DNA of 27,278 nt from a virus, in IMG/VR virus record IMGVR_UViG_3300025646_000271, positions 1-27,278 of that record. One strand, written 5' to 3'. Shown here in pieces: positions 3,496 to 26,275 of the stretch. The position numbers and the translations under genes are program-made. The notes under the pieces are model-generated. The model saw nothing but the letters and a program-made list of their open reading frames with translations. It was not told where the DNA came from and made no database searches. How positions within the stretch are numbered: position 1 is the first letter of the stretch; each line of letters starts with the position of its first letter.

Positions 3496-6400
3496 TCACT
3501 GCTCCTCCCAAGTTAAACTTGCTGATATTTCTGCTGACGGACTGCTAGGGTTATAAGAAGATTGAGAAGAACCACAAAGGTATAGACTTTCAACTTTATT
3601 TGTTAATGGGAATGATAGATATTCTTTATTGTAGTCAAAGTATGGAGAAAGATCATATTCTTCACCAGAAGCAGGAACAAAAAGACTTGCCACGATTGTT
3701 CCAGTTCCTGGAATAGGACTTCTGGTTTGTGGATTCACTTTTACTGAAGACAGTTGATCTAAAGTAAATTCAGATGTGGTTGATGATGTTCCTTCTCCAA
3801 TTGGCGTTGAATTTTCTTCTCTTAAAAATGGTTCAGCAGTGGTGAGAATAATATTATCTAGTGTTGATTCTAAAGCATAGAAATAATAACCATCTGTTTC
3901 AATACCTTTAGTTCTATCTGAACCCCTGTTCTCAAGATATCCAAGAACTGAAATTGGTCTTTGTGATGCATCACTTTCAAAGTATCCTCTAAAGTAACCG
4001 TAAGTTCCTGTGCCAATATCTCTGATATATTCTGCCTGCGCCTGACCCACATTAACTGAAAATGATGTATCATCTATACGAGTTACTGTTAAATTTTGTC
4101 CAGAAGTTGGGTCAGTTGATCTTGGATATGAATGTGTGGTTGCGTAATTATCCAAAGAGCATGTAAGTGTAATTGCACCATTTGCAATAGCAACTGTATC
4201 TCCCGTTGTCATCCCATGAGTAGCGGTAGTTACAACAGTCAAAACTCCAGATGATCCATCATAATCAGTTCCAGTTGTTGCAGTTAATGTTCCACCTGCT
4301 GCAGTACCAGTTTGAATTGAGATTGCGCCAGCAGTTCCAGAACTAAAATTATGATTACCAGTATAAACTACTAGAGGTAATTCAACTCTGGTTGGTTTTC
4401 CCCTTTTTCCGATATTTACTGAAGATGTTAATGAAGGAATCCCATCATTTGGTTCAACAATAACAGCGTCTGTTTGGAAGATGGGTGTTTTTAAGAGATC
4501 TAACTTGATGACACCAGTTGAACCAGTAGAAAGTCTTGTTGGATAAACTTGTGTCCTATTTCTTACACTTCTACCAGTACTACTTTGAATGAAGTCTCTG
4601 CATTTAATACCAATTAGAGGAGTAACACGTTCTGGAATAATATCAATGGTTGATATTGAACTTGAACTTAATGGTGCATTCAGATGAAGTCGATCGTTTT
4701 GTGGATTATAGTAATTAATTTTAATATTTTGATCTAGTGGATTAGAAGTAATAACTCTTGCACCAACATAATACGAAGAGGATAATCCAGAAGTTGCGCC
4801 TGCGGTCATGTATGGATCTGAAGAATCAGTAGCACTATTAAGTGAAACTTGAGTTGACCCAGTTCCAACTCCATAAGTTCTTCTCAATCCATAAACATTG
4901 GTGCTTGTTGGAGAACCATAACTAAAGAGTTTTACTGTACCACGGTCACCACCATCAATATAGTATGAAGCACCATACTTGACAATATGTTCGGAAGAAG
5001 ATCCATATCCAAATTCAGTTTGGGTTCTAAGTGAATTTGCATAACCCTCTCTATTTGGACCACCCCCACCATAGACCATGTAGGTAATAGGAAGGGTCGC
5101 ATTGCCCAGTGAGGAGACCTTCAACTGGTTTGATGCTCTCAGGTGGTGTACTCGTACCCAACGTGCCTCACCATTGCTTACAGGGACATATGCGAGGAAC
5201 AGAGCACCAACAGCACCATACCATGAGTACTCAACCTTGTACATGGTAACCTTGGTTAGATCAAGGTCCCAAATACTTGTATCAGTCAGTTGTTCACCAG
5301 TGTCAGTATCGGTAACAACTTGACCTGCTCTCTTGTCTGATACAACATCACTGTATAAAAGTCTATCAGTATCACCATCTAATCGGTCACCACTAAATCT
5401 AGATCTTGGGATACGATACTCATAAACACCAAAATACTGGATATCAACGTTCTGATTTACCCATTTATCGTAATATGCATTCAGTTGGTCAATTTGAGTC
5501 TTGAGATCAGAAGTATTTCCAACAGGTAAAGTAGTATCAATATATCCTTCATCGTTCCCATCTGCATCAAAATACATATAGGGGAACATTCCCGTTGGTT
5601 TTACAGTTGTGTAAGCAGTTCTATCACCATTAACAAGAGTTCCAAGAACAGGTTGAATAAATGGAACAGGAGTCACCAGAACATGTGATGAAATTCCAGC
5701 GTAACCATTTACATTTGGAAGTCCAGTTACTGTGTTATTGTTAAGTGTATTCAATGTGATCGCAGTATTACTATTTGATGTATCGACTGCAACGCTAGTT
5801 ACTTTATAAATTTGATCATCAACCAAATTAGTAATAACAGTAGAACTAGTTCCCTTGCTATATGAAACATATTGGCCAGTGGATAAACCTACTGCATGAC
5901 CACCACTTTGATAGTAAGTTGGCACAGTAGAAACACCAACATTAACGGTGAATGAAGTTGGGGAATCTACTCTTACAATATTATAACCATGAGTTCTATT
6001 TGGATATATTTTTTGCTCGTTGGTAAAACTACCAACATCACATGTCATGGCGATCCCAGTTAATGTAATATATTTTCCATTTTTAAATCCATGCTCACCA
6101 GAAGTAGTAACGGTCATTAAACCGTTTTCGATATTGTAGACGGCATTGGTTATACTCTTTGCTAATCCTGTTAATGAAATGGTATTTCCATTGTAAATGG
6201 AAGAAATTCCAACTTCATATCTTGGTTGTAGCAGTGACTCATCATATACGGCAGCATGAGTCATCATAAGGTTATCCCTTACTATGACTAAATCTCCCAG
6301 TTTTGCATTACTATACCCACTAGGAACTGAAGTTGCACCAACACCAACAGATTCGGAACCTCTTGCTTCTAAAGGATCATATGGATTAGTTGTCCCATAA

Positions 6401-13000: not shown

Positions 13001-13961
13001 CTTCCATTATAGAGATCCGATCCAACTCCAGTTATACGGAACGAATCATCAACGTTCAAATTGTGTACTATTTCAGTTTCAACAGTGGCGACAGTTCCAG
13101 AAGATGACAATGATATAATATTAAAGTCATTAGCGGAAAGATCTCCTACAATCTTAAATTCTGGACTGTTTGGTTCAAAATCACTTACGTTTGGATAGTC
13201 TAAAATTTCTCTATTTCCAGTATCATCTCCATATGCATTCATTAATTTGAAATAATACATATCAAGATCTGTAAGACCAGTCAGATCTTTTGCATTAATC
13301 CCATCTGCATATTCAAAGCAGGTGAGTTTATGGTGTGAGAAATTTGGATTTGCTTTTTGCGAAAAATTCTTATTATAGAAGACTTCTCTATCCGCATCAA
13401 ACATTGTAAATTGCCAAAAATAGCAACCACCAGTTACACGGAATAATGCAGATCTATCAATTGATGGATTTGATGGATCAGGAACATATAAAGGTCTAAC
13501 TTTTGTTTTTCTTAAGTCGAGACCAACGATTGAGGTTCCTTTTGGTACAACTACACCACCATCAACGGAATTGAGTTTGTAAAGGACATTCGATGAATTA
13601 TTTAAATCAAAAATAGTGCTACTTGATAATTCAATATCTGGTGAGGGTACATTATTACCATTAACATCCAAATATTGAGCACTACCACCATTATTTTTTA
13701 TATAATATCCAGGTCTATTATCAATTAGATGAGTTCCAGGATAAAGTAAGATTGTTGTCTTATCAAATCTATCGTTATTCGCACCACTTTGATAAGCAAA
13801 TCTTGCTGCTTCGATTAACGCTCTTGGATAGTTCTAAAGGGTCTCGTTAATGAATTTCCCTTATTATCAAAACTATCAGTAGCATCTAGATCTGATGGAT
13901 TTACATAAAGAATATTACCATCTGTGTTAATTAGAAAATTTTCTAACCTGGAAAGAGGCAT
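7072..13961 (-). CDS. Giant tail fibre/spike-like structural protein (~2296 aa), interrupted by a one-base frameshift
   Basis: ATG at 13961 opens MPLSRLENFL and continues to codon CAA at 13824-13826, then hits TAA at 13815-13817 after 48 codons. Shifting by one base at that point (RALIEAARFAYQ...) gives an open frame to the stop at 7072, so one A appears to be missing in CCAAGAG. I take this as one gene; the long downstream frame alone has no convincing start. The body is a string of beta modules of the type HGLxxGDxVxIxG...NGxYxV. A GIKTASPNHELDVNGTIRAT motif typical of phage fibres lies near 9300-9360. A right-handed parallel beta-helix, pectate-lyase-like (MTIDGNSSN, SRISIENCSFVDGS), is coded at about 7750-8450. 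This suggests a host-surface-binding or degrading tailspike, but the enzyme activity is not evident. A CTAAATA motif lies 30 bases upstream; no good Shine-Dalgarno is seen. Confidence 0.85.
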
Positions 13962-13991
13962 TGTATCAGCACACTAATTTTTCTTCTGCTT

Positions 13992-13998
13992 TATTTAG
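13992..13998 (-). promoter_or_regulatory. Putative late promoter CTAAATA before the giant fibre gene
   Basis: CTAAATA reads on the minus strand 30 bases upstream of the ATG at 13961, in a non-coding gap. The same heptamer stands 20-30 bases before three other start codons in this window. It resembles the T4 late consensus TATAAATA used by the gp55 sigma factor. Promoter activity is inference. Confidence 0.5.
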
Positions 13999-14041
13999 GA
14001 GCATCAAATCTCTTCTGTATTGAAAAAGGTTTTGGGGCAAA

Positions 14042-14071
14042 TTTTTGGCGGAATTTTTTTTCCACCAAAAA
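14042..14071 (-). terminator. Second hairpin, possible back-up terminator
   Basis: A 12-base-pair inverted repeat (14042-14053 with 14060-14071, one G-U pair) has a six-base A/T loop; the arms read TTTTTGGTGGAA and TTCCGCCAAAAA on the minus strand. The outer A-T pairs give it a symmetrical, terminator-like form that could act on either strand. It lies between the stronger terminator at 14098-14125 and the late promoter of the giant gene, so it may insulate that gene from the tRNA unit. Confidence 0.5.
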
Positions 14072-14097
14072 TGGATTTAAAGTTGCATTTTCAAATA

Positions 14098-14125
14098 CAA
14101 CAAAACCTCTCCTTTCGGAGAGGTT
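14098..14125 (-). terminator. Rho-independent terminator after tRNA-Thr
   Basis: On the minus strand AACCTCTCC-GAAA-GGAGAGGTT forms a perfect 9-base-pair stem with a GAAA tetraloop, followed by TTGTTG and more T-rich sequence. It lies about 40 bases past the 3' end of tRNA-Thr and would end the tRNA/small-ORF transcript before the giant structural gene. Confidence 0.8.
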
Positions 14126-14166
14126 CTGACGCACACGGAAGGGGATGGTTCGGCAGTATCGCCAAG

Positions 14167-14240
14167 AGCCAACTAACGGACTTGAACCGTTGACCTGAGC
14201 TTTACAAAAACCCTGCTCTATCCAGCTGAGCTAAGTTGGC
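14167..14240 (-). tRNA. tRNA-Thr (anticodon TGT)
   Basis: The minus strand folds as a full cloverleaf: acceptor GCCAACT pairs perfectly with AGTTGGC, D-stem GCTC/GAGC, anticodon loop TTTGTAA with TGT at the anticodon, and T-arm AACGG-TTCAAGT-CCGTT. The anticodon stem contains two G-U pairs. The discriminator is T and no CCA is encoded. It reads ACA codons, frequent in the AT-rich structural genes here. It lies 2 bases after the stop of the 89-aa gene, so the two probably share a transcript. Confidence 0.95.
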
Positions 14241-14242
14241 AT

Positions 14243-14512
14243 TTAATCAGCAGGTAATAGTTCTGGGTTCTCCAGATCTAATTCAAACATAAGAGGATGA
14301 CAAAGTTCATCAATCAAATAGAATGATGAATAGTATAACTCTTCTGGTTCAAATCTTTTTTCATTATCTGCGATTGCTAGAATTTCCCTATCGTAATACA
14401 AACTTTCAGGAACTTCATCAAAAGTAAATGGAACTTGGTTTATGAAATACATAAGAACCAACATTGATTCTTTATTGTACCAAACGTATCTGGTGTCAAT
14501 ACGGTATTTCAT
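14243..14512 (-). CDS. Hypothetical acidic protein, 89 aa
   Basis: An 89-aa frame fills the space between the two tRNA genes. It begins at ATG 14512, preceded by AGGA very close to the start, and by CTAAATA 20 bases upstream. The protein is rich in Glu, Asp and Tyr (FEPEELYYSSFYLIDELCHP), has no clear membrane segment or signal peptide, and ends DLENPELLPAD. I do not recognise a family. The long, well-spaced frame with its own late-type motif argues that it is real; the function is unknown. It may be transcribed both with the tRNA unit and from the CTAAATA site. Confidence 0.7.
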   Translation of the reverse strand: MKYRIDTRYVWYNKESMLVLMYFINQVPFTFDEVPESLYYDREILAIADNEKRFEPEELYYSSFYLIDELCHPLMFELDLENPELLPAD

Positions 14513-14532
14513 TCCTATTCCGTACTTTTGTT

Positions 14533-14539
14533 TATTTAG
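14533..14539 (-). promoter_or_regulatory. Putative late promoter CTAAATA before the 89-aa gene
   Basis: CTAAATA lies on the minus strand 20 bases before ATG 14512, between tRNA-Leu and the 89-aa gene. It is one of four occurrences placed just upstream of start codons; activity is inferred by analogy with T4 late promoters. Confidence 0.45.
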
Positions 14540-14557
14540 AGATTAAGAAAATCTCTA

Positions 14558-14641
14558 TAGGACGAGGGGGACTTGAACCCCCACGGGAATACTCCCAACA
14601 GATTTTAAGTCTGGTGCGTCTACCACTTCCGCCACCGTCCC
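14558..14641 (-). tRNA. tRNA-Leu (anticodon TAA)
   Basis: The minus strand forms a class II tRNA of 84 bases: acceptor GGGACGG with TCGTCCT (G-U pairs at both ends), anticodon loop CTTAAAA (anticodon TAA), a long variable arm TGGGAGTATTCCCG, and T-arm GGGGG-TTCAAGT-CCCCC. The outermost pair of the anticodon stem is mismatched. The discriminator is A and CCA is not encoded. It reads TTA, common in AT-rich phage genes. The acceptor begins 8 bases after the stop of the 51-aa gene. Confidence 0.94.
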
Positions 14642-14649
14642 ATAAAAAC

Positions 14650-14805
14650 CTATTCAGGTTTATAAGTAGATGGATTCATTCTACAATATTCATTGAAAGT
14701 AATCTTCATCTCCTTCCAAGTCAGTCCACAATTCTCCGCTGCTTTCGGAACATTCCATTTTGCTGCGAACAGCATTTGCATAGATTCCCTTGTTTCTGGG
14801 CGCAT
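14650..14805 (-). CDS. Small hypothetical protein, 51 aa (helical, HTH-like)
   Basis: The frame runs from ATG 14805 to TAG 14650-14652 and is preceded by AAGG about 11 bases upstream. The product (MRPETRESMQMLFAAKWN..., ending YCRMNPSTYKPE) is predicted helical; the segment WNVPKAAENCGLTWKEMKI resembles a small helix-turn-helix or Myb-like unit (AAxxxGLTxxEMK). A DNA-binding role is inference. An overlapping frame of 55 codons (14690-14857) starts just after the previous stop and cannot be ruled out, but its product looks less protein-like. It belongs to the sigma70-driven unit with the 56-aa gene and tRNA-Leu. Confidence 0.6.
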   Translation of the reverse strand: MRPETRESMQMLFAAKWNVPKAAENCGLTWKEMKITFNEYCRMNPSTYKPE

Positions 14806-14858
14806 GTGAATAGTACCTTAAGATTTCTTGGTAGTGTTTATGTGAGTATTGGATCATT

Positions 14859-15029
14859 TCAATCAATCAACATAACATCGCCACGCAGTTCAGCGAGTTT
14901 GATCTCTGCGAGAGTCTGAACACAAGTCCAGTATGCTTGACCACTGATGCAATTTTCATCGCAGAAGTACTCTGCCATGTCTTCTTGCAATTCACGGAGA
15001 GGAATTAAATCTTCTCGGTTGATACGCAT
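14859..15029 (-). CDS. Small hypothetical protein, 56 aa
   Basis: ATG at 15029 follows about 20-25 bases after the expected transcription start of the consensus promoter at 15056-15084 and is the first gene of that transcript. The product (MRINREDLIPLRELQED..., ending LAELRGDVMLID) is amphipathic helical, with three cysteines (FCDENC, WTCVQ). The upstream GAG is a weak ribosome site. I do not recognise a family; small proteins expressed from strong early promoters in T4-like phages often modify the host, but nothing in the sequence proves that here. Confidence 0.65.
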   Translation of the reverse strand: MRINREDLIPLRELQEDMAEYFCDENCISGQAYWTCVQTLAEIKLAELRGDVMLID

Positions 15030-15055
15030 GGTCTCGTTTGATTGATTACCTGCAT

Positions 15056-15084
15056 ATTATAACAGGTCTGAGTCCTGGTGTCAA
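15056..15084 (-). promoter_or_regulatory. Perfect-consensus sigma70 promoter
   Basis: On the minus strand TTGACA (15079-15084), a 17-base spacer and TATAAT (15056-15061) match the housekeeping sigma consensus exactly. The -35 box lies 3 bases past the stop of the upstream structural gene (15088), and the expected start is near 15049, giving a leader of about 20 bases before ATG 15029. This points to early, host-polymerase transcription of the small ORFs and tRNAs. Confidence 0.9.
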
Positions 15085-15087
15085 GCG

Positions 15088-17265: not shown

Positions 17266-19502
17266 ATACAATCAATAACACTTGTAATACCAACCAGAGT
17301 TCTTCTTGTATCAGCAAGATTATCCGTATTGGATAGTGGCTTGTATGCCATAATTGGAATCAAGGATGCTCCTTGTCCAGTGTTTGTATTTATGGTGATC
17401 TCTGGATAGTCATCAAACTCAAAATCAAATCCATTTGGAATTTGAATATTAATGATAGATCCATTTGGAGTTGTCAGTAATGGGAACTGAACATCACCAA
17501 TAGATGCCGTATCATTAGTACTATCGTACCCGACACCTGGCGCTTCAATGAATATATCTTCTACAGTCGCCCTAACATTTTCATCAACAATACCCTGGTC
17601 GGAACCAGAACAATAACCAAGTCCTGGATTTATAACTGCTACTTTATCAATAGATCCATCCTTTAATATTAATTGAACTCTTGCCCCAGTTCCATGTCCA
17701 GTATTATCAATAACTGCAACTGATGTATCATTATCATATCCAGTTCCACCATTAAGAACTTGTACTGAAAGTATAGAACCAAATCTAGAAACAATTGGTC
17801 TCAATGATGCACCAACACCATCACCGAATACCTCCATCTCTGGTGGGATACACCTATTATATCTGTACCCAAGTGGCATTGGAATCAAATCAAGTTGACT
17901 TGTTGGGTTGTTGATCTTTTGATTACATGCATTGAAGATTGAGTTATCTCCACCAAATAGACTAGAGGTTGCAACTGCACTTTCAATAGATCCAAGTCCC
18001 CTATTAAGTGAACCAGCAGAATTCCCTCCAGTCAATCCATCAACAGTGCTTAAGATATTTCCAACTCTCATACCATTATATTCTGGTATTTTATTATCTT
18101 CATCTGTCCCAAAGAAGTTAGCAATATCTTTCTCTGCTGTTTTGCCAAATTGATCAAGGTCTTTTGCAATATTATCAAAGATATCAATCTGATCTAGTTG
18201 CTTTTGCCACTTTGTAGCAGCCTGCTTAAGTGCTGCATTTGCTGAAGAGACCCACTTGCTTGGGGTGGTACACTTCAATCCATCACATCCAATGAAACTG
18301 TAGATTGCAGATGCAACGCTGCTTACTTTTCTCAACACATCTCTCACCTTTCCGAATCCACCCATTAACCAATTCAATCCAGACATAATTGGTTCCAGTG
18401 CCTTCTCTAAAAGATCAAATATCTTTGCAAAAATTGCAGATACAAATTGTTCTGCTGCACAAACTGGTCCGTTGATAATATTACCAATCATAGTCTGGAA
18501 CAAGTTAGTCAAGAATCCAATAATATCTTGAATTAACTTTTCAAAAATACAATATATGGTTGCAAGGGTTTTCATAAAACCCTTTTGTGCTGCAGGATCA
18601 GTTAAGTAAGATGCTGGATTTTTTAAATTTATATTACCCAACCATGTACTAAAGGTAACTGTCAATTTTCCAAATAGTCCATCTCTAACATTATTCATCA
18701 CACTCTTGACCACAGATTGTGTTGTCCTTACAATCTTTTTGATCTTTGCTGGCATATCCACAATCTTATTAAGAAGTGGATCTACAAATGCACCAGCAGC
18801 AAAATCTAGCATGTTGGTGAATGCGATAAAGTCCGTAAGTATTTGTGTCAGTTTGCCAATCGCATCATCACCACAGTTACTTGGAACTATTTCAGTCTTA
18901 GTTGCTTTTATTTCAAATGCTCTTGCCGCAGCACTACAGGAACCACCAATAACAGTGTTTGATTGTTCTGTTTTAGTTGAATCAATAGAAGGTTTTGTTA
19001 TCTTTCCTTGTTGTCCTGGAGAAACTGGTTCTGTTTCTATTTTCTTTGCGTTAGTTGGTTTGTTTGCTCTATTGCCTGTGAATGGTTGGAATCTAGAACT
19101 TTTCTCTAACTTTAATTCTGCGTTTGAGAAACTATTCTCTACATTTTCATTGCGATGAAGAAGACCAAAGATAACTGGTTGTTGTGCTTCTTCCCCATCC
19201 ATGAAGAAACCAACGCAGGTTTCTCCACCTTGAAGTGAAAGTGTCTGTCCTATTCCACCTTGACCACTTCCACTTATTGGATCCATCAACACATCTGCCC
19301 AAGGAAGATCTTCCTCCTTAAGTGTGCTGTCAAATGGATGGTAACCAATGATCCTAACCTTACATCTCTGACCTTTTTCGCCAGATTGATCCATTACGGT
19401 ATTGATGGCCTTCCAATAATCTGGATGGGCAACTCTGCCAATCCACCAGACAAAACCATCTCTACCAAGAAGGTTAGATTTTAATAGAGATTCTTCAATC
19501 AT
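17262..19502 (-). CDS. gp5: Baseplate central hub protein, gp5-like (no lysozyme domain seen), 746 aa
   Basis: Residues 1-125 resemble the OB-fold of T4 gp5 (WWIGRVAHPDYW, RCKVRIIGYHPFD, LPWADVLMDP, GFFMDGEEAQQPVIFGLLHR). Residues ~200-450 are helical and hydrophobic with Gly (DIIGFLTNLFQTMIGNII), unlike the T4 lysozyme domain, whose catalytic Glu/Asp context I do not find. The C-terminal ~180 residues hold GxGY repeats (VQVLNGGTGYDNDTSVAVID, INPGLGYCSG, EAPGVGYDS). ATG 19502 shares one base with the CP12 stop (TGATG), and no clear Shine-Dalgarno is seen, suggesting coupled translation. It probably forms the trimeric spike base under the gp27-like ring. The gp5 assignment rests on the N-terminus and gene order. 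Confidence 0.85.
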   Translation of the reverse strand: MIEESLLKSNLLGRDGFVWWIGRVAHPDYWKAINTVMDQSGEKGQRCKVRIIGYHPFDSTLKEEDLPWADVLMDPISGSGQGGIGQTLSLQGGETCVGFFMDGEEAQQPVIFGLLHRNENVENSFSNAELKLEKSSRFQPFTGNRANKPTNAKKIETEPVSPGQQGKITKPSIDSTKTEQSNTVIGGSCSAAARAFEIKATKTEIVPSNCGDDAIGKLTQILTDFIAFTNMLDFAAGAFVDPLLNKIVDMPAKIKKIVRTTQSVVKSVMNNVRDGLFGKLTVTFSTWLGNINLKNPASYLTDPAAQKGFMKTLATIYCIFEKLIQDIIGFLTNLFQTMIGNIINGPVCAAEQFVSAIFAKIFDLLEKALEPIMSGLNWLMGGFGKVRDVLRKVSSVASAIYSFIGCDGLKCTTPSKWVSSANAALKQAATKWQKQLDQIDIFDNIAKDLDQFGKTAEKDIANFFGTDEDNKIPEYNGMRVGNILSTVDGLTGGNSAGSLNRGLGSIESAVATSSLFGGDNSIFNACNQKINNPTSQLDLIPMPLGYRYNRCIPPEMEVFGDGVGASLRPIVSRFGSILSVQVLNGGTGYDNDTSVAVIDNTGHGTGARVQLILKDGSIDKVAVINPGLGYCSGSDQGIVDENVRATVEDIFIEAPGVGYDSTNDTASIGDVQFPLLTTPNGSIINIQIPNGFDFEFDDYPEITINTNTGQGASLIPIMAYKPLSNTDNLADTRRTLVGITSVIDCI

Positions 19503-19714
19503 CAGTCGTCGTAAACTCTACATTCGGACGCATCAGGATGTGTATCACAATAGAGTTCTAATGGTGTGGGGTCATGAGTTTCCCCTGGATGGTTCTCTTT
19601 ATATGCTTTCAGTGCTTCTAATTCTTCTTCCGTATGTCTTCTTGACTGTGCAGAAATAGTGGGATCACTCAGAAGATCCTCATCCTTTCTAATGTGCTGA
19701 TCAATGTTTTCCAT
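19502..19714 (-). CDS. cp12: CP12-like Calvin-cycle regulator, 70 aa
   Basis: The C-terminus, TPLELYCDTHPDASECRVYDD less its first residue, matches the hallmark end of cyanobacterial CP12, with the redox Cys pair spaced as C-x7-C and the terminal VYDD that inserts into GAPDH. CP12 joins GAPDH and phosphoribulokinase into an inactive complex, stopping the Calvin cycle; phage versions are thought to steer host carbon and NADPH toward the pentose phosphate path and nucleotide synthesis. The N-terminal Cys pair and classical AWD_VEEL core of full CP12 are missing; the N-terminal 45 residues are charged helix (RRHTEEELEALKAYKENHPG). A Shine-Dalgarno GGGAGG lies 3-4 bases before ATG 19714. It sits between two hub genes and shares a base with the gp5-like start, so it is presumably expressed with the late tail genes. 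Confidence 0.85.
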   Translation of the reverse strand: MENIDQHIRKDEDLLSDPTISAQSRRHTEEELEALKAYKENHPGETHDPTPLELYCDTHPDASECRVYDD

Positions 19715-19722
19715 GTTCCTCC

Positions 19723-21012
19723 CTATTGATTTGGTCCATAAACTCCATAAGAATCTCTCATTAGTTTGAGAGATGTTGTGTTTTGTTGAGCAGAAAAATG
19801 ATGTCTCAACTCCCGTATAACATAATTGCCGCTTGTTTCTGAATCAATTTCTCTTGTTTTTCCAGAATTCATTTCGGGGAATTCACAATAAATTATGTCT
19901 CCTACTTTTAGATTTATGTTACATGGTATAAGAATATTTAGTGCCTGTGTGAACAGCAAATTGTATCTAGAATATGCTTTTGCTTGATCTGAAATATCTC
20001 TTCCCGATTGTGCAGTACCACCAGCAGGTGATAGTACACCATGATCAGAAGTCCTAACCATGATTCTAGAGAATGATTTTCCTAATGCTTCAGACACAAC
20101 AATACTTTCTTGATTACCAAGTTGAGAAGCATTTTTAATTTCATCCTGGAGATAGTAATCATAGATTGAGAATGTATGATTCTCTCTATTATAAAAGTAT
20201 GTTTTGTTGGCGTACATTCCAACACGCAATGCTTTTCTTAAATCAATATTCTTTTCAAAGAAGTAATTCAAAATTGAGAAATTATTTTCAATGTTTCCTG
20301 CTTCAATTACTTTTCCATTATACTTGTAACTGTACTTACTTTCTGTTTTTGTTACAATTTTGTCAATACTTCTAAAGTTGAATCCATCTTTATTTTCATA
20401 GAATAAAAATCCCGCAGTTCCCTTTGCAAGTCCTTGTTCTGTTTTATCTTTTCCGTCAGTTCCAGTTTTCTTTGTGACAGCAGATACAGACTTTGGACCC
20501 AACCATTGCAAAACATGCAAAGGTTTCTTCATGTTTCCAATGAAACTAAAAGTATTTGAGGTCTCTTCTATATTCTCAGACTTAAAGTTAGTTGTCTTTA
20601 AATCTTCTCTAAGAATTTTTATTACAGATTGATTGACTTTTCCCGAATACTTGGTAGCACATCTTGCAGTTTCATTTGTAAGAAACTCTCTAGAGACTAA
20701 ATGTAAAGTAAAGTTCTCGGATGTCTTTTCTGCTTCAAGTCCGCTCACTTTGTAGACATACATCTGGTCAACAGCGAACTCTCCCGATGCCGTCTCTGCT
20801 TCTAGGAACAATCTCTCTCCGCCACGAATAGGAAGTCCATTGAACAATCCATATGCATTAGTGATTTGCATTGTCATTGTTACACATGGTTCAAGAATAT
20901 CTTCAAAATAATCTACTGACAATACAGCATTAGAAATATCAAATGCATTATCTCCATCAAGAGATTGCAAGACGACTGATCTATATTGTAAACCCGATAC
21001 TGCTTCTGCCAT
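19723..21012 (-). CDS. Baseplate hub protein, gp27-like, 429 aa
   Basis: The length is close to T4 gp27 (391 aa). The sequence has the beta-rich N-terminal layout of gp27/gpD-type hub rings: VLSVDYFEDILEPCVTMTMQ (about residues 27-46), RGGERLFLEAE, then LEAEKTSENFTLHLVSREFL and a helical KYSGKVNQSVIKILREDL segment. The C-terminus has a typical hub ending: LFTQALNILIPCNINLKVGD followed by IIYCEFPEMN and YVIRELRHHFS. ATG 21012 overlaps the upstream stop by one base; no Shine-Dalgarno is seen. The position between tape-region proteins and gp5-like fits gp27, which forms the hub ring around the spike. The assignment is from layout and context. Confidence 0.72.
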   Translation of the reverse strand: MAEAVSGLQYRSVVLQSLDGDNAFDISNAVLSVDYFEDILEPCVTMTMQITNAYGLFNGLPIRGGERLFLEAETASGEFAVDQMYVYKVSGLEAEKTSENFTLHLVSREFLTNETARCATKYSGKVNQSVIKILREDLKTTNFKSENIEETSNTFSFIGNMKKPLHVLQWLGPKSVSAVTKKTGTDGKDKTEQGLAKGTAGFLFYENKDGFNFRSIDKIVTKTESKYSYKYNGKVIEAGNIENNFSILNYFFEKNIDLRKALRVGMYANKTYFYNRENHTFSIYDYYLQDEIKNASQLGNQESIVVSEALGKSFSRIMVRTSDHGVLSPAGGTAQSGRDISDQAKAYSRYNLLFTQALNILIPCNINLKVGDIIYCEFPEMNSGKTREIDSETSGNYVIRELRHHFSAQQNTTSLKLMRDSYGVYGPNQ

Positions 21013-22868
21013 TACGTTGAGGAAAGTTTAGTTAAGAGTAGAGTATTCCACAAACTATTTAATAGGACAACTTCAGGTATTGATGCTACTGCGACACCAC
21101 CACCTCCACCACCCATTGGAATTGGGATTGGAATTTGTTGTGGTATTACTTGTGGTCCTCCACCTTGTCCCTGCGTGATAATTACAGTTTGCCCTCCACC
21201 TGATCTAGTCATTGGAACTTCCACCCGAGATCTTGCTTCTGGTGTTGGTTGTACTCTTGGGACTGATGGTGCAGATAATGGTCTGCTTGGTTCTTCTCCA
21301 GGTTTAGATTTAGAAGTAAAGAATGGATCTGATATTTTATATGCACTCATAGGATCAAAACGACCCGTTATCTGTCCCCCATTCCACCCAGTTCCAGTTT
21401 CCCAATGTAGGTGAGGTCCATCTGTTCTTCCAGTAAGTCCGACTTTTCCAATAATATCTCCTTTCTTAACTGGTCCACCTCTTTTGTAACCCTCTTGCAT
21501 GTGACCATAAAGGTGGTGAGTTCCTCTATCATCTCTAAAAACTAAGAAGTTACCCCATCCTTTTTCATAGTCAGAATCAACAATTTCACCATCACTAATT
21601 GCTCTCAATGGAGTCCCAACCGTTGTTGCAATGTCCTCTCCTTTGTGGATACGATCTCCACGAAGTTGTCCATAAGAACCTGATGGTGTTAGAGTTATGT
21701 TAGTATCTGGATCTGTATATTCATAACCACCACCTTCTTTTGGTGTTCCGTATAATCTTTGATTCAACGGAATATTATCATCAGTATCTCCATCTACAAC
21801 TTTTTTTCCACTTTGTGCGAATGTCAGAAGACCATCAACTGCTTCATTAAATGTTTTAAGTACAGAAGAAAATTGATTTTCACTTTTTTGCTTTTCTTCT
21901 GTTATTTTTTTGTTAGCATCTATTGTTTTATTTGCCCCAGTTATTTTATCTGATAGACTTCCTGCTGCCTTACCACCAAAATATGATGCAGCAAGTGAAC
22001 CGAGCATAATCAAACCTGCCACCGTAGTAGATGGTTCTGGTATTACTGTTAATGCAATCGCAGTCGCAAGAGATCCAGCAACTGCTCCACCAACTGCACT
22101 TGACGTTGCACCACTAATTGCTTGTGTCTCGGTTTGTCCTTCTGTTTTTCTATCTTGATAATCTAGTCCAGCAAACAAAAGACTTGCTGGTCCAGATGCT
22201 CTCCTAGCAAAACCTCCTGCATTTTTAAGAGCGCCGCCCATTTTAGTGCTTCCACCACCAAGTTTGGGTGCTCCTCCAGTAGCAGTCTGTCCACCTCCAA
22301 ATCCTGGAAGTTTGAATCCTTGACCCTTTAATGCTCCCTGTGCGTTGAATCCACCCTTAGTGAACAATCCAGGCAGACCAATTCTTCCTCCTTTAAAAAG
22401 TCTAAAACGATCACCAAGATTTGATTTGCCAGCAATATATCTGGAGAATGAATCGTTCATTCTACCCAGTTGCTTAGGATTCAACCTTGGTATTTTTGGT
22501 CCTCCACCTTTGGATGAATTTGGTTTGGGTTTACCTCTTGGTGGTTTTGGTCTTCTAATGAATGGGATATCAGGACCACCAAGACCAGGAAGAAACATAC
22601 CTGGAATCCCACCAAGTAACCCAAGTAATCCACCAAGGCCACCGCCTCCTCTGTCCATCTCAAGAACTAGTTTTTCTAGTTTCTTGATTTCTTTCTTTGA
22701 TGGAATTTTTATCTTCTCTAGATCTTTAGTACTAGAGTCTATCCATTTGATAAATTTTTTATACTCAGACTTCTTGTCAAAGTCTAGTGCCTTGACCATT
22801 CTAGTCTGGGGCGAGGCAACAATATTATTTGCTGAATTTTTGAGTGGAGACTTTATGAGAGTGATCAT
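21012..22868 (-). CDS. Tail hub/tape-region protein with M23 endopeptidase domain, 618 aa
   Basis: Residues ~400-500 are an M23 (LytM-type) zinc peptidase with its full ligand set: H408-x3-D412 (HKGED), HHLYGHM (about 451-457) and H486-L-H488 (GPHLHWE). Such domains cut peptide cross-links in peptidoglycan. Residues 30-72 are charged helix, 73-230 Gly/Pro/Lys-rich and basic, and 255-300 hydrophobic (VGGAVAGSLATAIALTVIPE), possibly a membrane-inserting segment. The C-terminal ~90 residues are Gly/Pro-rich and end in a hydrophobic tail. ATG 22868 follows AAGGGAC and lies 5 bases after the previous stop. It probably rides in the tail tip or tube and opens the host wall during DNA entry. Confidence 0.85.
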   Translation of the reverse strand: MITLIKSPLKNSANNIVASPQTRMVKALDFDKKSEYKKFIKWIDSSTKDLEKIKIPSKKEIKKLEKLVLEMDRGGGGLGGLLGLLGGIPGMFLPGLGGPDIPFIRRPKPPRGKPKPNSSKGGGPKIPRLNPKQLGRMNDSFSRYIAGKSNLGDRFRLFKGGRIGLPGLFTKGGFNAQGALKGQGFKLPGFGGGQTATGGAPKLGGGSTKMGGALKNAGGFARRASGPASLLFAGLDYQDRKTEGQTETQAISGATSSAVGGAVAGSLATAIALTVIPEPSTTVAGLIMLGSLAASYFGGKAAGSLSDKITGANKTIDANKKITEEKQKSENQFSSVLKTFNEAVDGLLTFAQSGKKVVDGDTDDNIPLNQRLYGTPKEGGGYEYTDPDTNITLTPSGSYGQLRGDRIHKGEDIATTVGTPLRAISDGEIVDSDYEKGWGNFLVFRDDRGTHHLYGHMQEGYKRGGPVKKGDIIGKVGLTGRTDGPHLHWETGTGWNGGQITGRFDPMSAYKISDPFFTSKSKPGEEPSRPLSAPSVPRVQPTPEARSRVEVPMTRSGGGQTVIITQGQGGGPQVIPQQIPIPIPMGGGGGGVAVASIPEVVLLNSLWNTLLLTKLSST

Positions 22869-22873
22869 GTCCC

Positions 22874-24445
22874 TTATGCCTCAACAATGTTGTATATCAT
22901 CTTTGCACTCAACCCAGCATAACTATCAAAATTATTAGAAGGTAAGAATGCAATTGATGGACCCTTAACTTGAGAAGGTATTAATGGTGCTCCTCCAGAT
23001 GAAGATGCCGCCTGAACTCCGCCAGAATCACCAGGTACTTGTATTACTGATACTTCTGGATTTGATGGTATTCTTCCTGGTTGTCGTACTTGAGTTGAAC
23101 TCGGATTTACACCATACATTCCCTGGATTGTATCAAACCAGTTTCTTGATCTTTGTAATGGTATACTTTGATTATAAACAAAATACTTATCTTTGAATAA
23201 TTGACGAACTTTGTCCCTTTCTGCATCATTAAGTGTTTGTTTCTGAAGGAGACTCAAGAGTTCAGTATGACCTCTTGATTGAATCTCCTTAATCATTGCA
23301 GCGGCATTTGCTTTAATTCCTTCATCACCACTTTCTTTTAGTCCCGCTTCACTTGGATCAATACCTCTTGCTCTCAATTCATCCATAAGGACTTTTTCTC
23401 TGCCACCTTGCCAACTCACTGCACCATAAGCCTTAACACCATTGTCCATGTGAGTGCCAAGTATTAAATCTTTGCGTAAACTATTCTCTCTACCTATTTC
23501 TGCAGTAGCAAGTCTCGCCCCTTCCTCTGACAATCCCTGACGTTTAAATTCACCAGTAAGAACGTCTGCAACTTGTTTTTGTGATGCACTAGTGGATGCT
23601 GCATTTGATTGAGTGGTTCTCTCTTCTCCCATCAATCCACCGCTTGGACTCACACCTTCATCACCATTCCTCTTTGCTTTTCCACCAGACAATAATAAAT
23701 CTACTGCTTGTTTGAACTTATTAATAATTTTTTCAAATGTGTCTGCAGATTTAGTTTGCTTTTCTACTGTATTTTTTTCTGTATTTCTTTGAATGTCAAG
23801 TTCATTTTCTTGTGCTTGAACTTTATTCATAAATGTATCGCCAAGTCCAAGAACACCAAGCACTCCCATACCACCAAGAGCAATCTTTGGTAAAAGACTT
23901 TTTGCTACTCCACCTAATCCTATTCTAGCAAATAATGAAATGACCCAACCAGCAAGTTGTCCGATTACAGATCCTATTAATTTTACAACTCCACCAATAA
24001 GACCCATTATTAAACCTAAGGCACCACCCCCACCACCTCCACCAGAGATGGATGGGATATCTTTTAACTGCTTGGCAATTCTATTGATTGTGATTCTCAA
24101 AAACTTAGCAATCTCAAAAGTCTCTGCCAGAGAATTCCTAAGTCTTTGTACACTCTTTCGTAGTCTTCTTTCTGTTTTCTTAGACCCAAAGAAATCTAAA
24201 ATATCATAACCAGTTGCTCTACCATAAGTCTGAGTATTTGAAATATTATTAATTACAGAACCAAGATTATTCTGACTAGGTGGAGATATATTATTCCTTT
24301 GAAAACTGACAATATTATTTTTTGCACCAGACACTATGGATGCACCTGGTGCTTGTCCACCAGTGACAAAATCCATCGCTTTCTTTTTCTTTAGCGATTT
24401 AATTTTGCTACCAAGTTTTTTAAAAGGAAAGATGGATTCAAACAT
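22874..24445 (-). CDS. Tail hub/tape-region protein with lysozyme-like domain, 523 aa
   Basis: Residues ~290-425 resemble phage tail lysozyme domains: ARLATAEIGRENS (candidate catalytic Glu at 316 or 320), then KAYGAVSWQGGREKVLMDEL, the GxxQW/GGR-type block, then helical NAAAMIKEIQSRG. The N-terminus is basic (FPFKKLGSKIKSLKKKKA), residues 85-130 are helical, and 134-210 hold a Gly run and long hydrophobic stretches (ALGLIMGLIGGVVKLIGSV) that could cross a membrane. ATG 24445 immediately follows the 61-codon frame's stop. Directly behind the chaperone pair is the usual place of the tape measure gene, but long uninterrupted coiled coil is lacking. The lysozyme call is moderate; a link to T4 gp29 or gp28 is speculative. 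Confidence 0.75.
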   Translation of the reverse strand: MFESIFPFKKLGSKIKSLKKKKAMDFVTGGQAPGASIVSGAKNNIVSFQRNNISPPSQNNLGSVINNISNTQTYGRATGYDILDFFGSKKTERRLRKSVQRLRNSLAETFEIAKFLRITINRIAKQLKDIPSISGGGGGGGALGLIMGLIGGVVKLIGSVIGQLAGWVISLFARIGLGGVAKSLLPKIALGGMGVLGVLGLGDTFMNKVQAQENELDIQRNTEKNTVEKQTKSADTFEKIINKFKQAVDLLLSGGKAKRNGDEGVSPSGGLMGEERTTQSNAASTSASQKQVADVLTGEFKRQGLSEEGARLATAEIGRENSLRKDLILGTHMDNGVKAYGAVSWQGGREKVLMDELRARGIDPSEAGLKESGDEGIKANAAAMIKEIQSRGHTELLSLLQKQTLNDAERDKVRQLFKDKYFVYNQSIPLQRSRNWFDTIQGMYGVNPSSTQVRQPGRIPSNPEVSVIQVPGDSGGVQAASSSGGAPLIPSQVKGPSIAFLPSNNFDSYAGLSAKMIYNIVEA

Positions 24446-24625
24446 TTATAAGTTTGCCTGCTGCTGTGCTTTTAGATTTTCCTCTTCAATGTGTTGATTC
24501 AGAAGTGCAAGATAGATATCTCGCTCCCATGGCATCATATTTTCAATCTCTGTTAAGCTGTATTTATGATGCTGCATCAAGGCAAAATTCAATTTATAAT
24601 ATGACTCAAGGTCAATATGAGCCAT
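24446..24625 (-). CDS. gp51: gp51-like tail assembly protein (59 aa alone, or C-terminal part of a frameshift fusion)
   Basis: The frame reads MAHIDLESYYKLNFALMQHH followed by YSLTEIENMMPWERDIYLALL and a charged end. The PWERDIYLALL block resembles the short second frame of phage tail assembly chaperones and the small gp51 proteins of T4-like cyanophages. The open frame reaches back to TTG 24631 and overlaps the gp26-like stop. No Shine-Dalgarno stands at a usable distance from ATG 24625; the nearest GGAGG lies about 25 bases upstream, just before a slippery heptamer. The frame is in the -1 phase relative to gp26-like. It may therefore be made mainly as a 302-aa fusion, with independent start as the alternative. 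Confidence 0.8.
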   Translation of the reverse strand: MAHIDLESYYKLNFALMQHHKYSLTEIENMMPWERDIYLALLNQHIEEENLKAQQQANL

Positions 24626-24627
24626 AA

Positions 24628-25353
24628 TCAACCGAAAAAACTTGACAGTCCCTCCAGAGTTACTTCACTTTCAACCTCAGTATTTGGATTGGTAACCTTA
24701 AACGTATGAGAAAGTTTTGGCATAGTGGCAAAGAAGTCTTCAATCTGCTTGAACTGACTTGAGTTCAGTCCATCTAACCAGGACATCAATTCTTTCTTGG
24801 TACTATCTGCAGCAGACCAGCACTCATCTGCATCAAAGATCATATCAATACAGGATGCAATGATTTCAAATGACTTCTCAAGTGAAGACTCATCATCAGT
24901 ATTAAAATCAAAGTTGTTCTGAATAAATTGATTCAGAGATGGATACTTCATACGCAGTGTAAGTTTTCCATCAAGATTAATATCTGTGGTGTGCTTTGGA
25001 TCTTTCTGTACAGAAATTTCGTCAATATAAATCTTGACTGGAACCGTAGTCTCTCCATCATCAGGACAGGTTACAACCAGATCAATTGATTCTCCAACTG
25101 ACTTACCACGTACATTCAAGAAAACATATTCAATATCAAACGTAGGAAGTTCTTCTACTTTAATTCCTCTAGTTTGAATGCAATCTTTCAGCGTTGTCTT
25201 GATTGCATTTGTAATCTGATCCACATTCTCACTCTCTAATGCAAGAATCAGAATCTTTTCTTCTCTAACTAAAAATGGTCTGTATTTAATCTTCTTTCCA
25301 GATGAAGGCAATTCCAACTCATATGTTGGTGTGGAGATCTTTGGTAAAGGCAT
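24628..25353 (-). CDS. gp26: gp26-like tail assembly chaperone / baseplate hub assembly protein, 241 aa
   Basis: The protein resembles the T4 gp26 family: MPLPKISTPTYELELPSSGK then KIKYRPFLVREEKILILALE, a helical ITNAIKTTLKDCIQ, and the beta block LPTFDIEYVFLNVRGKSVGE. The second half has CPDDGETTVPVKIYIDEI, then helical segments and the end LEGLSSFFG. In T4, gp26 and gp51 help assemble the baseplate hub but are not in the virion; genes at this position before the tape measure are chaperones in other tailed phages. ATG 25353 follows TAGGATATT; a CTAAATA motif lies 28 bases upstream. The stop is 3 codons past a T TTT TTC heptamer, so a longer -1 product is likely. Confidence 0.85.
   Translation of the reverse strand: MPLPKISTPTYELELPSSGKKIKYRPFLVREEKILILALESENVDQITNAIKTTLKDCIQTRGIKVEELPTFDIEYVFLNVRGKSVGESIDLVVTCPDDGETTVPVKIYIDEISVQKDPKHTTDINLDGKLTLRMKYPSLNQFIQNNFDFNTDDESSLEKSFEIIASCIDMIFDADECWSAADSTKKELMSWLDGLNSSQFKQIEDFFATMPKLSHTFKVTNPNTEVESEVTLEGLSSFFG
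24634..24640 (-). other. Putative programmed -1 ribosomal frameshift site (T TTT TTC)
   Basis: The heptamer T TTT TTC stands in the zero frame of the gp26-like gene (AGT TTT TTC GGT TGA), three codons before its stop. Both tRNA-Phe contacts can re-pair after a -1 slip (X XXY YYZ rule). GGAGG at 24651-24655 ends 10 bases upstream, like the internal Shine-Dalgarno of E. coli dnaX. A weak 6-base-pair stem (24618-24623 with 24603-24608) begins 10 bases downstream. After the slip, CGG TTG ATT ATG continues straight into the gp51-like frame. Confidence 0.75.
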
Positions 25354-25381: not shown

Positions 25382-25388
25382 TATTTAG
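25382..25388 (-). promoter_or_regulatory. Putative late promoter CTAAATA before the gp26-like gene
   Basis: CTAAATA overlaps the stop codon of the preceding gene (the TAA is part of the motif) and lies 28 bases before ATG 25353. Its spacing matches the other three start-proximal copies. Promoter function is inferred from similarity to the T4 late consensus. Confidence 0.5.
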
Positions 25389-26275
25389 TTCATTGGTGAA
25401 GGTGGTCCTGCTATTTCTGCAGTAGCAGGAGTTCCACCCTGTTCTCTAATTCTATTTTGGGATCTGATTATCATTTCTCTAATTTCACTAACAGAATCAG
25501 TAATAGATTGTGGACTAGTTTGTCCCCTAACTGGTTGATCTGGATTTGCTGGATTCGTTGTGGGTGCTCCGCTAGGAGTTGTGGTTGGCGTATCAAATCT
25601 AGTCTTCTCTACAATGTACCTAGTATAATTAAATGAGGCAGTAACCTTTGTGATAGTACTAGACTCATAAGAAAATGGAATGGCAACAATATTCATTGGG
25701 AATGCATCAATGAATGTATACTTTACTAATGATTGTGGTCTAAAACCAGAATCACTAATACTTGGATTTGCCAGGAAGTTTCTTTCAAACTTAACTACTG
25801 ATATATCTTTTTTATATTCATTTGGATACTTCATTCTGTAAAAATTATTACTACCATTAAATCCAGTTTGTCCATTACCAGATCCTTGATATGCACCAGC
25901 AGATGAATGGATTGGATCAATATAATTCATCCACTCTTCCAAAAGACGAAGTGAGTTGTAATTATCATCAACATAGAAAGTCAAATCAAAATCTGTATAT
26001 ATTCTTCTCGTCGCAAATCTTTCAATCATACCTTGGCGACTACCACTCTCTTCACTCATATCAAATGATGAACCAGGAAGAGTCACGTCAGAACAAAGAA
26101 AGTCATAAGACTTTGGGTTAGTAAGTAATCCAGAATTTGTTAAATGTTGATTAACACCTTGACCATTTGCTGCCAAGTTTAGATTTACCATGAACTGAGA
26201 TGTTTGAGACAGTTTCCCAATGATAGCGGAAACTTGAGACATCTTTGCATAATAGAGTTCGGCGGACTCTGCCAT
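25385..26275 (-). CDS. Baseplate tail-tube initiator/cap-like protein (gp54/gp48/gp19 fold), 296 aa
   Basis: Residues ~55-125 follow the tail-tube fold pattern: SYDFLCSDVTLPGSSFDMSE, then a basic FATRRIYTDFDLTFYVDDNY and LRLLEEWMNYI, the loop-strand-helix order of T4 gp19 and its baseplate relatives gp48 and gp54. Later blocks YRMKYPNEYKKDISVVKFER and YTFIDAFPMNIVAIPFSYES also fit. The C-terminal ~60 residues are Pro/Gly-rich and loosely structured. It probably caps the hub and starts tube polymerisation; the exact T4 equivalent cannot be told from sequence. ATG 26275 lacks a clear Shine-Dalgarno; Met12 (26242) is an alternative start. It is divergent from gp4. Confidence 0.78.
   Translation of the reverse strand: MAESAELYYAKMSQVSAIIGKLSQTSQFMVNLNLAANGQGVNQHLTNSGLLTNPKSYDFLCSDVTLPGSSFDMSEESGSRQGMIERFATRRIYTDFDLTFYVDDNYNSLRLLEEWMNYIDPIHSSAGAYQGSGNGQTGFNGSNNFYRMKYPNEYKKDISVVKFERNFLANPSISDSGFRPQSLVKYTFIDAFPMNIVAIPFSYESSTITKVTASFNYTRYIVEKTRFDTPTTTPSGAPTTNPANPDQPVRGQTSPQSITDSVSEIREMIIRSQNRIREQGGTPATAEIAGPPSPMN

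Follow-up and report, generated by a model that had tools for sequence, protein, structure and literature searches.

A conserved -1 frameshift signal at the end of a gp26-like gene in T4-like phages, and its relation to T4 gp26 and gp51

Features of the locus

The window studied here is the whole of a 27,278-nt stretch of DNA from a marine cyanobacterial virus (IMG/VR record IMGVR_UViG_3300025646_000271), a genome fragment in which all features of the frameshift locus lie on the minus strand. These features and the neighbouring genes are listed below, with the evidence for each.

25385..26275, minus strand: upstream gene, tail tube or tube-initiator-like (a gp54-type neighbour); PF23849 at 4e-18, phrog_45 tail tube at 1.5e-34
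24628..25353, minus strand: putative short chaperone form, gp26-like, 241 aa (equivalent of 'G' or TAC-N), TGA stop included; PF12322, phrog_150, hhalign
24651..24655, minus strand: Shine-Dalgarno-like (SD-like) GGAGG, putative stimulator, 10-nt gap to the heptamer; direct sequence reading and anti-SD pairing
24634..24640, minus strand: slippery heptamer T TTT TTC, zero frame AGT TTT TTC; conservation and codon bias
24446..24633, minus strand: -1 frame extension (putative T or TAC-C domain), 62 codons after the shift plus a stop; phrog_634, phrog_150, hhalign
24628..24630, minus strand: zero-frame stop TGA; translation
24623..24625, minus strand: ATG in the -1 frame, 2 nt past the zero-frame stop, a possible site of reinitiation with no Shine-Dalgarno of its own; sequence
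24600..24626, minus strand: downstream hairpin, 9 bp (24626-24618 with 24608-24600), 7 nt 3' of the heptamer; folding and covariation
22874..24445, minus strand: downstream gene, 523 aa, candidate tape-measure part; position, hydrophobic segment, weak phrog_19273 match only
21012..22868, minus strand: next gene, 618 aa, M23 peptidase domain, candidate second tape-measure part; PF01551 at 1.8e-22, PHROG

The gp26-like gene (25353-24628) matches the Pfam family PF12322 T4_baseplate (6.4e-72) and phrog_150 (2.5e-78), and its 3' end reads CTG GAG GGA CTG TCA AGT TTT TTC GGT TGA. Read in the -1 frame (TTT TTT CGG TTG ATT ATG GCT ...), the same region stays open for 64 codons, up to a stop at 24448-24446, and a shift would join 240 and 62 residues into a predicted fusion of 302 aa. 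The extension matches phrog_634 (1e-28) as well as the C-terminal part of phrog_150, while a Pfam search with the short downstream ORF gave no real family. The original prediction, made from the sequence alone, had named an in-frame T TTT TTC at 24640-24634, a GGAGG 10 nt upstream, a 302-aa fusion through a second frame in the exact -1 phase, and no usable ribosome site for that frame. All of these are borne out: the GGAGG is read at 24655-24651, translation gives the fusion, and the ATG at 24625-24623 lacks a Shine-Dalgarno-like sequence.

Of the 7,013 codon positions in the minus-strand genes of the window, 34 carry an in-frame heptamer of the type X XXY YYZ. The one at 24640-24634, which is located at the end of a gene, has by far the longest trailing -1 frame of them all, at 64 codons against 28 for the next best.

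Conservation of the heptamer and the -1 frame

Loci for comparison were taken from IMG/VR, using several gp26-like queries, and from annotated phages; 281 junctions were usable, and in each the heptamer was sought in frame within 20 codons of the stop. An in-frame TTTTTT[C/T] was found at that distance in 257 of the 281 junctions. At loci L188 and L190 it is present farther upstream of the stop, and the remaining 22 junctions are Ackermannviridae-like. Every one of the 259 non-Ackermannviridae junctions therefore carries the heptamer, down to a gp26-like identity of about 24%. The phages that bear it include Kyanoviridae, Pelagibacter phage Mosig, pf16, Astolliot, BUCT608, Schizotequatrovirus R11Z, CZ01, Chrysonvirus avDM12, Cronobacter phage S13 and Agrobacterium phage Atu_ph04.

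Clustering of the heptamer-bearing loci at 85% identity gave 159 representatives, from which only the Ackermannviridae-like group and the L188/L190 case are absent. In all 159 the -1 frame runs on for 30 codons or more without a stop, and in their alignment its product opens with a conserved block, FFR[LI].... Loss of the heptamer or of the -1 phase in relatives had been named beforehand as the observation that would speak against a frameshift; both are kept in every non-Ackermannviridae relative examined. This conservation across relatives marks the frameshift site as a real feature. An assembly error or a pseudogene was also considered, and is ruled out by the conservation.

In codon counts that are descriptive, as related sequences are treated as independent, the codon before the first Phe ends in T in 159/159 representatives, whichever of Ser, Asp, Asn, Ala or Thr it specifies. 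The heptamer's first Phe is encoded by TTT in 159/159, against a background of 75% elsewhere. Only 8 of the 168 other FF dipeptides in the genes lie on T TTT TT. To judge from these sequences, the constraint acts on the nucleotides, beyond a mere FF dipeptide.

Putative stimulators on either side of the heptamer

In 127 of the 159 relatives the internal SD pairs better with the anti-SD than synonymously recoded versions of its peptide do, with a mean of -6.39 against -4.65 for the synonymous null (-1.90 against -2.01 in a control region). The Glu codon in the SD region is GAG in 71/93 cases against a background of 26%, again as a descriptive count.

The stem downstream had been described as weak, with 6 bp and a distance of 10 bases. 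This needs correcting: it has 9 bp, a folding energy of -10.2 kcal/mol and a start 7 nt after the heptamer. In the window, its z-score against dinucleotide shuffles is -2.15 for a 44-nt stretch and drops to -0.59 for a 64-nt stretch. When the 42 nt after the heptamer are compared with synonymous recodings of the -1 peptide, the mean z is -2.19 over all relatives and -2.99 for the cyanophage type (n=63), against -0.20 and -0.38 for the controls, and by this comparison folding of the hairpin region is under selection. Pairing in the stem reaches 87%, with covariation: the covariation score is 0.093, against 0.047 when shuffled, and is also above that of slid registers, though kinship alone may lift such a score over shuffles without any structure. 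Our main support is the synonymous null. RNAalifold returned zero consensus pairs for 53 cyanophage sequences. In P-HM1 a clean hairpin of 6 bp begins 5 nt past the heptamer, at -12 kcal/mol. The SD-like site and the hairpin both exceed their synonymous-recoding nulls, which is what the stimulators of a programmed -1 frameshift would be expected to do.

A well-known relative of this arrangement is E. coli dnaX, where an SD about 10 nt upstream, a slippery heptamer and a downstream stem-loop make up the signal, and a shift on A AAA AAG leads to a shorter product. The three-part layout is alike in the two systems, but the shift proposed for the window would extend the protein.

The same fusion could in principle arise from slippage of RNA polymerase on the T6 run, with a base inserted in some of the mRNAs: the homopolymer exists, and an extra U would yield the -1 frame. 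A run of six is, however, short for transcriptional slippage, and an SD at ribosomal spacing together with excess folding of the hairpin a few bases downstream points to the ribosome. We regard polymerase slippage as extremely improbable.

Start codons in the -1 frame

Database annotation lists two genes at this locus, which would fit a model with two separate proteins only, in which termination at the gp26 stop is followed by reinitiation at the ATG two bases beyond it (24625-24623 in the window) to make a gp51-like protein. An ATG lies within nine codons in 73 of the 159 relatives, and in cyanophages the ATG two bases past the stop is often kept. Against this, the first nine -1 codons hold no ATG in the other 86 representatives, examples among cultured phages being S13, Mosig and the cyanophages ACG-2014d/b/i; in 82 of these 86, GTG and TTG are absent from codons 3-9 as well, and in 5 representatives ATG, GTG and TTG are all absent over 30 codons. 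With no near ATG in 86/159, the conserved start of the -1 frame would there be reachable by a shift only. Where a near ATG does exist it comes without an SD, with a mean anti-SD pairing of -1.0 kcal/mol against -4.1 for the gp26 ATG. Homology to gp51 begins at the slip site, ahead of the ATG, and reinitiation leaves the heptamer, the SD spacing and the hairpin unexplained. As the sole route to a second product it is very unlikely. It could nevertheless operate alongside frameshifting, and separate synthesis of the C-terminal domain from the near ATG is possible in cyanophages.

Relation to T4 gp26 and gp51

T4 gp51 (249 aa) matches PF12322 over residues 1-201 (3.9e-52) and covers nearly the full phrog_150 profile, and is therefore a gp26 paralogue plus an extra C-terminal domain. 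In hhalign comparisons the short form scores 99.3% to the T4 gp26 set and 97.9% to the N-terminal part of gp51, and the -1 frame domain matches residues 200-252 of the T4 gp51 set (97.3%, E 2e-11); profile comparison of the -1 frame domain with gp26 gave no homology. The original prediction of a fusion between gp26-like and gp51-like proteins holds as far as homology to both is concerned, but the second frame corresponds to the C-terminal domain of gp51, about 50 residues, and not to the whole protein. Going by these matches, the counterpart of T4 gp51 is the complete fusion, gp26-like domain and tail together.

Copy number follows a simple pattern. Two PF12322 genes are found in 5/5 T4-type genomes (T4, Aeromonas phage 31, RB43, PhT2-v2 and phiP4-3), one in 14/14 frameshift-type genomes, and one in the window, itself a fragment. 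In the 5 T4-type and 14 frameshift-type genomes checked, the long form would come from a second gene or from a shift, and never from both. On this evidence, T4 gp26 and gp51 would be the short and long forms of a chaperone, which T4 owes to a duplication and the phage of the window to a -1 shift. Homology and copy pattern thus favour the suggestion that the two proteins are a G/GT-type pair.

The Ackermannviridae-like phages

In the Ackermannviridae-like phages a single gp26-like gene is followed by a homologous -1 frame, e.g. at 3729-3899 in locus L091 and 3732-3932 in L090, with further extensions in L089 (3711-3902), L093 (3573-3758) and L274-L291. This frame is homologous to the domain found in the window (93.7%, E 1.8e-7), and each of the 4 such genomes checked (Vi01, Kuja, K476 and K493) has one PF12322 gene. 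The T6 heptamer was not found at the Ackermannviridae-like junctions (n=22), which read [A/G]ATTTTC or NCTTTT[T/C]. An ATG overlaps the stop in K476 and K493, and Vi01 has no near ATG or other start codon.

A tentative reading is that the mechanism for the long form has turned over at one homologous locus. The dnaX-like, three-part TTTTTT[C/T] signal would serve in Kyanoviridae, Pelagibacter phages and several outlying T4-like phages; a non-tandem site, [A/G]ATTTTC or NCTTTT[T/C], would serve as the shift site into the homologous -1 frame of the Ackermannviridae-like phages; and duplication would serve in T4.

Neighbouring genes, fold and function

The tail-tube-like gene lies directly upstream of the chaperone locus, and genes of tape-measure size with weak or mixed profile matches lie downstream. 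In most of the relatives checked, the gene in the position of the 523-aa gene encodes 583-705 aa, and one of these matches a tape-measure profile (1.1e-8); the 618-aa gene matches several lysin and tape-measure PHROG profiles. The 523- and 618-aa genes adjoin (21012-24445, minus strand) and have glycine-rich hydrophobic stretches, with the M23 domain in the second. Together they appear to divide a tape-measure function between two proteins, and a tape-measure identity is suggested for the genes downstream of the chaperone locus.

An AlphaFold model of the gp26-like protein (pLDDT 86.6) matches models of other gp26-like proteins. HK97 gp13 (2ob9) is the second match in a Foldseek search of the PDB, and a weak one (E 0.67, prob 0.25); the gp26-like profile found no match among the sequences of solved structures. 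The position of the locus and the analogy with lambda G/GT (PMC5009743) lead us to infer that it encodes a tail-assembly chaperone.

Discussion

The signal, its conservation, the homologies and the contrast between one-copy and two-copy genomes are all backed by sequence. The gp26-like gene and the frame that follows it are very probably one tail-assembly chaperone gene that is decoded in two ways through a -1 shift. Most ribosomes would terminate at the TGA, with the 241-aa short form as their product. Some of them would slip back by one base on T TTT TTC, with tRNA-Phe re-pairing on TTT TTT, aided by the internal Shine-Dalgarno upstream and the hairpin downstream, and would go on to make the 302-aa long form with its added C-terminal domain. 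If lambda G/GT is a guide, the short form would be plentiful and the long form scarce, and the two would cover the tape-measure protein and bring in subunits of the tail tube. T4 and its close relatives would produce these two forms from separate genes, the short one from gp26 and the long one from gp51. That the shift takes place in infected cells, at whatever rate, and that its products act as chaperones is what we infer.

The likeness to lambda gpG/gpGT is in a -1 shift near the 3' end of a chaperone gene that gives short and long forms, and is not based on sequence: the lambda heptamer is G GGA AAG, whereas the window has a poly-T heptamer with an SD and a hairpin. The frameshift in the tail-assembly chaperones of Vandenendeviridae and Andersonviridae (PMC12846349) differs as well, with GTTTTT in place of TTTTTT[C/T] and in other phage families.

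An earlier view was that the tail-chaperone frameshift is conserved in long-tailed phages 'except T4' (PMC5009743). According to two later papers (PMC10885494, PMC12846349), the tail-assembly chaperones TAC-N and TAC-NC of T4-like phages were identified by Vladimirov, Gautam and Davidson in 2022. The same papers report that some T4-like phages have, in place of frameshifting, one short gene and another that encodes the long fusion (PMC10885494), and credit Vladimirov et al. with poly-T slippery sequences in T4-like TAC-N genes (PMC12846349). As far as these accounts go, the proteins are homologous to those described here, with the same short and long forms and poly-T slippery sites; T4 itself is unlike the window in taking its long form from a second gene rather than, as proposed for the window, from one gene and a -1 shift. 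Our evidence agrees with the 2022 identification. The idea that gp26 and gp51 are chaperones, put forward in the original prediction, is right but mostly known already, and the window appears to be a well-supported further case of known tail-chaperone frameshifting. What we add, and did not find in the literature examined, is the comparison of the three-part cyanophage signal with synonymous nulls and the one-copy and two-copy pattern.

T4 gp51 has been described as a protein of unknown function that assembly needs and the particle lacks (PMC3004832). Our results suggest that this 'assembly catalyst' of the T4 hub is the long form of the tail-assembly chaperone, and that cyanophages and Pelagibacter phages make the long form by frameshifting. 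There is also a consequence for curators: public cyanophage genomes omit the C-terminal domain (ACG-2014d, b and i) or call it as a separate gene, and this annotation needs correcting. In the three ACG-2014 genomes (L297, L298 and L299, at about 1001-1190) the conserved C-terminal frame is unannotated and has no near ATG.

Further observations in the window

A CP12-domain protein (PF02672, 7.7e-14), a homologue of a Calvin-cycle regulator, is encoded at 19502-19714 on the minus strand. Its gene sits in the tail operon, with a gp27-like gene on one side and a gp5-like gene on the other. At 13672-15087, about 1.4 kb between the tail-fibre gene and the genes upstream is without a long minus-strand ORF; the only recognisable ORF within it is one of 89 aa at 14243-14512, which matches phrog_4134 (2.7e-31).
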